Origin: Armatimonadota bacterium
GTDB taxonomy: Bacteria > Armatimonadota > Armatimonadia > Armatimonadales > Armatimonadaceae
Assembly (NCBI GenBank): GCA_026392155.1
Contig: JAPLCP010000141.1
Coordinates: 1 to 39,195 of the forward strand
Direction of reading: 5' to 3'
Length of the DNA: 39,195 bases
Below, piece after piece: positions 6,465 through 39,195 of this stretch. Numbering within the stretch: the first letter of the stretch is position 1; each line of letters begins with the position of its first letter. The notes under the pieces were generated by a model. The model saw only the letters and a list, made by a program, of their open reading frames with translations, made no database searches and was not told the origin of the DNA. The translations under genes were made by a program, and so were the position numbers.

Positions 6465-7127
6465 ATGTCAAGAACGTCTTTTGCGCTCCCTGAAGCGCTA
6501 CACAGCTATCTTCTCACCGTCGGGACGCGCCCTGATGCCGTGCGCCTCGCTCTGCGCGAGGCAACCAACGACCTTCCCAACTCTGGGATGCAGATCAGTG
6601 TCGAGCAGGGTGAGTTTATGGATCTGCTGATCAAGCTCACCGGCGCAAAAAAGTGCATTGAAGTCGGGACTTTCACCGGCTACTCCGCGCTTGTCACCGC
6701 ACAAGCACTACCTGAAGACGGCAAGCTGATCTGCTGCGATGTCTCGGATGACTACACCAAGATCGGCAGGCCGTTCTGGGCACAGGCAGGCGTAGCACAT
6801 AAGATTGATTTACGCATCGCCCCAGCGACTGAGACTCTTGATGCCCTCCTCGCTGATGGTCAAGCCGGGACGTTTGATTTTCTCTTTATTGATGCCGACA
6901 AGCACAACTACGACCACTACTACGAGCGTGGACTCAAGCTCCTCAAGCAAGGCGGCTTAATCGGCATTGACAACACTCTCTGGAGCGGGAAAGTCATTGA
7001 CGACGAAGCACAAGACACAGACACTGTGGCTCTGCGGGCACTCAATCTGAAAATTCACGCCGACCCACGGGTTCAGGTCTCGATGCTTCCTATTGGTGAT
7101 GGTTTGACGCTCTGCCGAAAAATCTAA
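6465..7127 (+). CDS. SAM-dependent O-methyltransferase (class I, CCoAOMT-like)
   Basis: 220 aa. The ATG at 6465 is chosen over an upstream in-frame ATG at 6321 that overlaps the divergent gene. The SAM-binding motif is EVGTFTGYS (66-74), a second acidic motif CCDVSDDY lies at ~90-97, and the divalent-metal/catalytic segment FIDADKHNYD is at 141-150 with GGLIGIDNTLW after it. These are the defining features of the Methyltransf_3 family (caffeoyl-CoA/catechol O-methyltransferase-like), which methylates hydroxyls of small aromatic or other diol substrates with Mg2+. Length is normal for the family. It is cytoplasmic and probably monocistronic: a GTCGC-GGA-GCGAC hairpin plus T5 follows the stop. 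Substrate unknown. Confidence 0.93.
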   Translation: MSRTSFALPEALHSYLLTVGTRPDAVRLALREATNDLPNSGMQISVEQGEFMDLLIKLTGAKKCIEVGTFTGYSALVTAQALPEDGKLICCDVSDDYTKIGRPFWAQAGVAHKIDLRIAPATETLDALLADGQAGTFDFLFIDADKHNYDHYYERGLKLLKQGGLIGIDNTLWSGKVIDDEAQDTDTVALRALNLKIHADPRVQVSMLPIGDGLTLCRKI

Positions 7128-37304: not shown

Positions 37305-38126
37305 CTATTTTTCACAGTTTTTCACCCAGCGGTCAATGAGCTGGCGAGAGAGGGCGTAGGGGGGCGGGAGCTCGGGGAGGTTGGTGTGGTGGAACCACGC
37401 GGCGTGAGAGAGCTCGGTGGGGTCGGGGGTGATGGTGCCGGAGTCGTAGCGGCAGAGAAAGCCGACCATGAGCTGATGCGGAAACGGCCAGGTCTGGCTG
37501 CCGTCGTAGGTACACTCCCCTACCGTGACCTGCACTTCTTCGATGGTCTCACGACGGCAGCAATCTTCCAGTGACTCGCCGGGCTCGACAAAGCCTGCGA
37601 GAATCGAGTAGCGCTTCCCCCAGCCTTCTTTCTGGGCCAATAAGATATTGCCCGCGCCATCGTGGACAAGGATCAGTACGGCGGGCGTGGCGGGCGGGTA
37701 GTGAGAGAAACCGCAGGCCATACACTTCTGGTTCCAGCCATCATCATTGTGGGTCGGGCCGCCGCAGGCCGGGCAGAAGCGGGCATTTTTGTGCCAGCGA
37801 ATAAGCTGCGAGGCATACCCTGCGACCGTGATCTCTTCGTCACTCATATGACCAAAGAGCGAGCGCAGGCCAAGGCGCTTGACGTTCTCCGGCTCTACGG
37901 CATCGTCATCGGCGGGGAGTGGTTGAGAGAACGCGAGGCATGGGACGCCATCTAAGTCGCCGATATAGAGGGCGTTTTCGGGTGCGGGAGTCGCAGAGCG
38001 CAGTAAGCGTGCCCCGTGGCGGTCGTGGTGAACGAGCAGCTCGCCTTCAGCAACAAACGGGAGGTGAATCTGTAGACTGGCAGAAAGTACGGCGGGCTTG
38101 CCAGCGGGATAGGCGCGGAGAAACAT
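37305..38126 (-). CDS. nudC: NADH pyrophosphatase (NudC)-like Nudix hydrolase
   Basis: 273 aa from the ATG at 38126, preceded at 5 nt by TACCAT; an ATG at 38141 or a long extension to 38324 overlapping the divergent gene are less likely. An N-terminal beta domain (PFVAEGELLVHHDRHGARLL) is followed by LFGHMSDEEITVAGYASQLIRWHKNARFCPACGG, the zinc ribbon (CxxC...CxxC, second pair CMACG), and the Nudix box GFVEPGESLEDCC then RRETIEEVQV. SQTWPFPHQLMVGF corresponds to the SQPWPFPxS signature of NADH/NAD-capped-RNA hydrolases. It cleaves NAD(H) into AMP and NMN(H) and may remove NAD caps from RNA. Divergent from the selenoprotein candidate, sharing a 24-bp promoter space. Confidence 0.93.
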   Translation of the reverse strand: MFLRAYPAGKPAVLSASLQIHLPFVAEGELLVHHDRHGARLLRSATPAPENALYIGDLDGVPCLAFSQPLPADDDAVEPENVKRLGLRSLFGHMSDEEITVAGYASQLIRWHKNARFCPACGGPTHNDDGWNQKCMACGFSHYPPATPAVLILVHDGAGNILLAQKEGWGKRYSILAGFVEPGESLEDCCRRETIEEVQVTVGECTYDGSQTWPFPHQLMVGFLCRYDSGTITPDPTELSHAAWFHHTNLPELPPPYALSRQLIDRWVKNCEK

Positions 38127-38138
38127 GGGCCATGGTAC

Positions 38139-38144
38139 CATAAT
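38139..38144 (+). promoter_or_regulatory. -10-like box CATAAT, 6 nt before ATG 38151
   Basis: CATAAT then CGCACT then ATG. The bases ATGGTACCAT next to it give the oppositely directed TACCAT for the NudC-like gene; the two promoters overlap back to back. Confidence 0.45.
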
Positions 38145-38150
38145 CGCACT

Positions 38151-39032
38151 ATGAGACAGACTCCTCTCTCCACCGGCGCAGACGTGGTGTTTACCGATCA
38201 TCTCACGCCCGAACAACCCACGATCTTCTTTTTCTATCGCCCGAGCAGCACGATGGAGCAGCAGTACTTTGAAGGCATTCAGGCGCAGCTCAAAGGCAAG
38301 CCGGTGGGCCTGCAAGTCATTCACCTCAAGACGGGCGAGGAGCCCATTGCCAAGAAAAACGAGATCGTCACGACTCCCACCGCCCTGATCTTTGACCGCC
38401 GGGGCCGACTGACGGGCAAGGCTACCAACCCCGATGAGCTCATGATGCTCGCCCGTCAGGCAGGCGATGTGGCACGGATTGACTGGCTTACCGACCCCGC
38501 CGACCCGCGCTTTGAGGCGCTCAGGAAGATGGGAATGCCCTTCAAGAGTCCACAGCAGATCCCCGGCATCATGCGCACGATGAGCCTAAAACCCGAGGCG
38601 ATGGCGATGGTGCAGCAGCTTGCGGGCATGATGCACTTCGCCGACGGTGCCCTGACACGCCGCCAGAAAGAGCTGGTGGCGACCTATGTCTCGGCGCTGA
38701 ACCGGTGTAAGTACTGAGTGTCTAGCCATGGTGGTTTCCTGCGGTCGCAGGGACAAGAAATCAGTGACGTCGACGCGGTCGGCATGGGCGAGCCGGAGAA
38801 AGCCAAGGGCCTCGCCCCGAAAGAGCGCGAGCTACTGAAGTTTGTGAAGCGCTTGACTCTAGAGCCCGCCAAGACCTCGGACTTGGATATCGAGGCGCTC
38901 CGAAAAGCGGGCTGGACAGACGAGCAGATCTTCGAGGCAGCTTTTGACACGGCGCTCTTTGCGTTCTTCAACCGCATGGCCGATGCCTATGGCCTGGGCT
39001 ATGAAAAAAGCGGCTGGCTGCCGCCGAAGTAG
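38151..39032 (+). CDS. Candidate selenoprotein: Trx-like domain fused to AhpD-like (CMD) domain, in-frame UGA as Sec189
   Basis: 293 aa if UGA 38715-38717 is read as selenocysteine; otherwise 188 aa. Residues ~20-105 look thioredoxin-like (TIFFFYRPSS, TTPTALIFDRRGRLTG with the cis-Pro) but carry no Cys. Residues ~120-293 are a carboxymuconolactone decarboxylase/AhpD domain: ALTRRQKELVATYVSALNRCKY, UGA, VSSHGGFLRSQGQ, then FAFFNRMADAYGLGYEKSGW. Glu174, Cys186, Sec189 and His193 reproduce the spacing of AhpD Glu118, Cys130, Cys133 and His137. The UGA thus falls on the peroxidatic cysteine, and the frame continues without a shift to TAG at 39032. A SECIS-like hairpin follows. Expected role: peroxide or thiol reductase. 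The alternative, a nonsense mutation, is less likely given position and hairpin. Confidence 0.82.
38715..38717 (+). other. UGA codon proposed to encode selenocysteine 189
   Basis: Codon context is TGT-AAG-TAC-TGA-GTG-TCT-AGC-CAT, i.e. C-K-Y-U-V-S-S-H. In almost all AhpD-like proteins this position is Cys (C-x-x-C-x-x-x-H). Confidence 0.8.
38734..38755 (+). promoter_or_regulatory. Bacterial SECIS-like hairpin
   Basis: UUCCUGC (38736-38742), loop GGUC (38743-38746), GCAGGGA (38747-38753): five Watson-Crick pairs plus one G-U and one U-A. The apical loop contains GGU as in the E. coli fdhF element. Twenty-five nt separate the UGA from the loop, inside the roughly 16-37 nt range typical for bSECIS elements. 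SelB would bind here to insert Sec-tRNA. Confidence 0.7.
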
Positions 39033-39041
39033 ATACGGGGT

Positions 39042-39195
39042 TCAATCCAAGCGCAAATCAAGGCAGGGCAGGGTGAGAATCAGGCGCTTGCCGCCCCGCA
39101 AAACCGTGAGCTTTACCTTCTGCCCGACTTCTTTGTTGAGACGCAGCCAAGTGTGGAACTGGCGCGGGGTCATCTGCGGCAGGGTCTTGCCATCC
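39042..39195 (-). CDS. PDZ-like domain C-terminus (partial, runs off window)
   Basis: The last ~50 codons of a minus-strand gene, ending at TGA 39042-39044; the frame is open to the window edge. It reads DGKTLPQMTPRQFHTWLRLN, then KEVGQKVKLTVLRGGKRLILTL, the usual end of a PDZ domain as found after protease domains (retropepsin-like or HtrA-like): a glycine turn, the helix with K-E-V-G-Q, and the final R-G-G-K strand. The rest of the protein is outside the window, so the parent family is unknown. It ends 9 bp after the convergent selenoprotein gene. Confidence 0.65.
   Translation of the reverse strand, partial: DGKTLPQMTPRQFHTWLRLNKEVGQKVKLTVLRGGKRLILTLPCLDLRLD

Follow-up and report, generated by a model that had tools for sequence, protein, structure and literature searches.

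A predicted selenoprotein with a cysteine-free thioredoxin-fold domain fused to a CxxU AhpD-like domain in an Armatimonadota bacterium

The stretch of DNA analyzed here (the window) is a 39,195-nucleotide contig from the draft genome of an Armatimonadota bacterium (4.77 Mb in 228 contigs, ~97% complete). Near its right-hand end, terminating 163 bases from the end of the contig, lies a reading frame on the forward strand that contains a single in-frame stop codon, a TGA at residue 189. When this TGA was translated as selenocysteine (Sec, U), the frame yielded a protein of 293 residues ending at a TAG codon, in agreement with the first-pass annotation of this DNA, which had described a frame broken solely by that UGA and had placed it correctly. 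The features of the locus are as follows.

38151 to 39032, plus strand: predicted selenoprotein gene, 293 codons plus TAG, encoding a thioredoxin-fold domain followed by an AhpD/CMD domain with a CxxU motif
38151 to 38480, plus strand: N-terminal thioredoxin-fold domain, residues 1 to 110 (AlphaFold2, Foldseek, alignment)
38556 to 38993, plus strand: AhpD-like/CMD domain, approximately residues 136 to 281 (TIGR01926, PF02627, PDB matches)
38706 to 38708, plus strand: codon for Cys186, the predicted partner of Sec189 (invariant in the alignment)
38715 to 38717, plus strand: UGA codon for the predicted selenocysteine 189, which corresponds to AhpD Cys133 (TGA in eight further full-length homologues of the phylum, spread over seven genomes; TGT or TGC in paralogues)
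38736 to 38753, plus strand: putative bacterial SECIS hairpin of 7 bp with a GGUC loop at 38743 to 38746 (comparison and folding)

The gene is flanked on the left by an open reading frame for a NudC-like NAD diphosphatase (37305 to 38324, minus strand). If translated from its GTG start, this frame would run 174 bases into the selenoprotein gene. Its domain match does not begin until residue 92, and translation more likely starts in frame near 38126, which would separate the two divergent genes by a very short gap. On the right, positions 39045 to 39194 (minus strand) hold the C-terminal portion of a gene truncated where the contig stops, and its counterpart at the same place in the sibling genome is 74% identical. 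The neighboring genes vary between lineages, and among those examined we found no operon conserved past the sibling genome and no functional lead.

The proton relay of AhpD consists of Glu118, Cys130, His132, Cys133, and His137 (PMC3141380). Four of these residues correspond to Glu174, Cys186, U189, and His193 of the window protein, all with an offset of +56, so that the UGA sits on the reactive cysteine with AhpD spacing, as first annotated. The fifth position is occupied by Tyr188, making the motif CKYU; PA0269 of Pseudomonas aeruginosa likewise has Tyr in place of AhpD His132 (PMC3141380). Across the homologue alignment, Glu174, Cys186, and His193 are invariant, position 188 is Tyr or Phe, and position 189 is Sec or Cys in every sequence except one that carries Gly (L018, described below). 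The cysteine that the first-pass annotation had proposed looking for in this column is found in the paralogues (TGT/TGC), every Sec-type sequence has exactly one Cys plus the Sec, and the Glu/Cys/His-or-Tyr/Cys(Sec)/His relay of the AhpD-type peroxidase mechanism is present.

A search of 291 genomes of the phylum found TGA at the same codon in eight further full-length homologues, which come from seven genomes; the sole remaining full-length copy was a tandem Cys paralogue in the sibling genome. Many single-domain relatives also carry TGA at this position. TGC or TGT in close relatives, which would have pointed to an error or recent mutation, was not what we saw in the sibling-genus orthologue, which is 78% identical to the window gene and has TGA. 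Comparison of these two genes gave a dN/dS ratio of ~0.10 for the part after the TGA (dN, 0.085; dS, 0.856) and 0.13 for the 58 codons preceding it. We conclude from this that the codons beyond the TGA are translated and kept under selection.

The first-pass annotation had also held that this organism uses selenocysteine, and all four genes of the machinery that it proposed searching for are present. The genome encodes a tRNA-Sec with the anticodon TCA (64.3 bits, above the Rfam cut-off), together with selA (518 bits, against a curated cut-off of 268), selB (337 against 242), and selD (390 against 125). A tRNA-Sec (TCA) was found in eight of the nine checked genomes that carry relatives of the window gene; in the ninth (G038), the search for it returned a tRNA-Ser alone. 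The selD gene (L081 276 to 1259, minus strand; G000:C87) has an in-frame TGA of its own at U31 of the translated stretch, within RCAGUASKIG, and because of this it is most likely a selenoprotein gene itself. The same genome contains a second CMD-type selenoprotein (L080, G000:C222:26600-27800), with the motif CFYU in NACFYUTESHAEFLR and a hairpin, CACGCAGAGUUUCUGCGUG, ~9 nt after the UGA, a SECIS spacing unlike that of the window gene.

Immediately downstream of the UGA lies the hairpin UUCCUGC-GGUC-GCAGGGA (stem, 38736 to 38742 and 38747 to 38753), the loop of which begins 25 nt past the last base of the UGA. A hairpin right after the UGA with a small apical loop containing G is what PMC1088965 gives as the bacterial SECIS criterion, and both the position and the conservation in homologues bear out the SECIS-like element first noted there. 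The folding analysis that had been suggested gave a divided result: as a 22- to 26-nt element, the hairpin is unusually stable (z score, −2.3 to −3.0), whereas the 41 to 71 nt after the UGA show no excess stability (z score, ~0). As a consequence, the case for a SECIS rests on position, synonymous-codon randomization, and comparison. Randomization gave P values of 0.02 to 0.03 for the window hairpin alone and modest values for each of the other TGA members (range including the window, 0.004 to 0.13). The 5-bp core pairs at a fixed distance, in an ungapped alignment, in 13 of the 14 TGA homologues, the exception (L055) having its hairpin in another register. In the core, two positions show compensatory changes (two of G-C to C-G and one of C-G to U-A), a third, outer stem position is changed on both sides, and the GU of the loop is invariant. 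Shuffle controls lend this covariation modest support, with 8 to 20 of 500 shuffles matching or exceeding the observed pairing values on most measures, and a slide of +3 likewise gives a high covariation score. In the nine Cys homologues tested, no stem with a GU loop exceeded 4 bp, and the CFYU group, which is more distant, has another hairpin lying nearer to the UGA.

The C-terminal part of the protein (residues 137 to 281) matches TIGR01926, the "peroxidase-related" family, at 96.5 bits (cut-off, 81.8), and PF02627 matches at 63.4 bits. By contrast, the model for AhpD proper, TIGR00777, scores 20 bits against a cut-off of 191.95, and NF041238 (AhpD_rel_CFYUT) scores 73.8 against 175, aligning over model positions 172 to 337 of 357 only. 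The best PDB matches of the CMD part, by both sequence and fold, are 6k40, 3c1l, and 2prr. Thus, the AhpD-like family first assigned to this gene was upheld in general, but its nearest group is TIGR01926/COG2128 (6K40/DR1765-like) rather than AhpD itself. At 293 residues, the protein is longer than the TIGR01926 model (178) and the ~180 to 190 residues of single-domain members, a length that is typical of TIGR01926 proteins and not strictly defining.

The additional length is accounted for by an N-terminal domain that the first-pass annotation lacked. AlphaFold2 modeling of the full-length protein with the family alignment gave a pLDDT of 91.6 and a pTM of 0.81, with pLDDT values of about 84 to 95 in residues 1 to 110, which are arranged beta-alpha-beta-alpha-beta-beta-alpha. 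Foldseek matched this domain over ~105 to 120 columns to the thioredoxins 3hz4 and 3zzx and to the designed protein 6iev, and a conserved Thr-Pro (residues 75 and 76) stands where thioredoxins usually have their cis-Pro. The CxxC or CxxU of a redox-active thioredoxin is absent: neither the window protein nor any aligned Sec-type homologue has a Cys in this domain. Just three of 11 members gave a match to the Pfam thioredoxin model, and a weak one (E = 0.02). Because the domain folded alone and without an alignment gave a pLDDT of 46, its assignment rests on the full-length model and the Foldseek matches.

Selenoproteins of the AhpD-like CxxU type have been on record since 2005 (PMC1088965, PMC2398784, PMC13188914), in line with the first-pass annotation; these texts describe COG2128/TIGR01926 AhpD-like selenoproteins from the Sargasso Sea (27 sequences; PMC1088965) and "AhpD-like 1" selenoproteins from the GOS data (299 sequences; PMC2398784), and the family is reviewed in PMC13188914. 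The window protein shares with the COG2128/TIGR01926 selenoproteins an AhpD domain above the TIGR01926 cut-off, Sec at the second catalytic position, and a SECIS immediately downstream of the UGA, and, as far as those texts describe them, differs in adding ~130 N-terminal residues with a Cys-free thioredoxin fold. It resembles NF041238 (Sargasso Sea "hypothetical protein 1") in its C-terminal CMD domain with CxxU, but the N-terminal half of that model (positions 1 to 171) is unmatched. Deinococcus radiodurans DR1765 (PDB 6k40), the top structure and sequence match to the CMD part, has CxxC, 197 residues, and no thioredoxin-fold domain. Mycobacterium tuberculosis AhpD (TIGR00777) has the same Glu-Cys-(His/Tyr)-Cys/Sec-His relay and spacing, but with Cys instead of Sec and again without the thioredoxin-fold domain. 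A term search of the three publications did not find the fusion, NF041238 does not cover it, and our literature search on selenocysteine or selenoproteins in Armatimonadota returned nothing relevant. On sequence evidence, then, the window gene is a selenoprotein gene of the known TIGR01926/COG2128 CxxU kind; what is new is the fusion of a Cys-free thioredoxin-fold domain to a CxxU AhpD domain, together with two variants found in other genomes.

One of these is a tandem pair in the sibling genome (L022 1501 to 3217, minus strand / L082 1987 to 3703, minus strand), in which a TGA copy lies directly behind a TGT copy (CKFC, no hairpin). The pair sits between the NudC-like gene and the conserved downstream gene, at the same locus as in the window, where there is a Sec copy only. 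In a tree of 26 sequences, the Cys copy was sister to the two Sec orthologues (support, 100/99). Its nesting within a mostly Sec group suggests, although the root is arbitrary, that Sec was replaced by Cys after duplication. The other variant is a full-length homologue in a metagenome-assembled genome titled Planctomycetales (L018, equivalent to L073; G291), which has GGG (Gly) at the Sec codon (6535 to 6537). Its SECIS-like hairpin is nevertheless intact, and its genome has a tRNA-Sec. This GGG is either a loss of Sec or an assembly error; its use as a sense codon for Sec is unsupported because the tRNA-Sec of that genome has the anticodon TCA. We consider it somewhat better than an even bet that these proteins form a distinct, undescribed selenoprotein subfamily, with a Cys-free thioredoxin fold and a one-Cys/one-Sec AhpD domain, in which Sec is ancestral and the sibling Cys and L018 Gly copies are stages of its loss.

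Taken together, these results are explained best, and with high confidence, by a single 293-residue selenoprotein, a CxxU AhpD-like redox enzyme with SECIS-directed Sec189. The hairpin would recruit SelB with Sec-tRNA(UCA), so that the UGA is read as Sec; genome-wide and comparative evidence supports the insertion, the family, and the residue position, and decoding as Sec189 is strongly supported. Sec189 and Cys186 would form a redox pair beside the Glu174/Tyr188/His193 relay in the AhpD-like helical domain. The selenolate would attack a hydroperoxide (or the oxidized thiol of a partner) to give a selenenic acid, which Cys186 would resolve into an intramolecular Cys186-Sec189 selenenylsulfide, to be re-reduced by an external dithiol, either of a lipoyl protein or of thioredoxin. 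This selenenylsulfide cycle is the most likely chemistry of the enzyme. The N-terminal domain, which cannot carry electrons because it has no cysteine, might speculatively serve in docking, dimerization, or substrate binding. The predicted activity is either the reduction of hydroperoxides or a disulfide exchange that supplies a peroxiredoxin.

The draft state of the assembly and the closeness of the gene to a contig end might suggest that the TGA at 38715 to 38717 comes from faulty sequencing or assembly or from a nonsense mutation of recent origin. The TGA shared with the eight other full-length homologues already refutes this reading; the low dN/dS downstream, the conserved SECIS, and the complete Sec machinery also speak against it, and its chance is negligible. 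An open and conserved frame beyond a TGA could also arise if UGA were decoded as an ordinary amino acid, through a changed genetic code or general read-through. However, TGA ends 7 of the 33 main open reading frames that we chose in the window, which shows that UGA still serves for termination here, a tRNA-Sec with the anticodon TCA is present, and the relatives without TGA have Cys at this position; we give this contradicted reading practically no weight.

The remaining alternatives accept the same selenoprotein and concern its job. Rather than reducing peroxide, it may carry out disulfide or selenenylsulfide exchange to reduce another protein, either a peroxiredoxin or an OsmC-type partner, in the way that AhpD serves AhpC. 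AhpD is an adaptor linking lipoyl proteins to AhpC, and Corynebacterium glutamicum AhpD regenerates OsmC (PMC8945050, PMC3141380); the Cys-free domain could offer a surface for docking. Among the neighbors examined, none next to the gene was identified as AhpC or another peroxiredoxin. Loss of DR1765 in D. radiodurans increases sensitivity to H2O2, and full complementation requires the CxxC of this protein (PMC8945050). Because the CxxC relative PA0269 is a weak direct peroxidase (PMC3141380), we regard exchange and the direct reduction of peroxide as roughly equal in plausibility, and put the former slightly short of an even chance. Thiol chemistry of the CMD family directed at some other electrophile, for example a reductive dehalogenation like that of the debrominase Bmp8, seems very improbable: Bmp8 (6ohi, 6ohj) is among the Foldseek structural matches, but more weakly (E about 1e-5) than the AhpD-like 6k40 (4e-11), and no dehalogenation context was seen.

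The gene is thus almost certainly, as judged from its sequence, that of a single selenoprotein redox enzyme with Sec at the reactive site, which gene prediction would ordinarily report as two fragments, and it adds a firmly supported member to the selenoproteins that gene callers would cut in two. The adjacent Sec and Cys copies in the sibling genome offer a natural pair with which to probe what selenium gains this enzyme, and the fusion of a thioredoxin fold to an AhpD domain gives a hint of the way in which enzymes of the AhpD-like type may come upon their partners.
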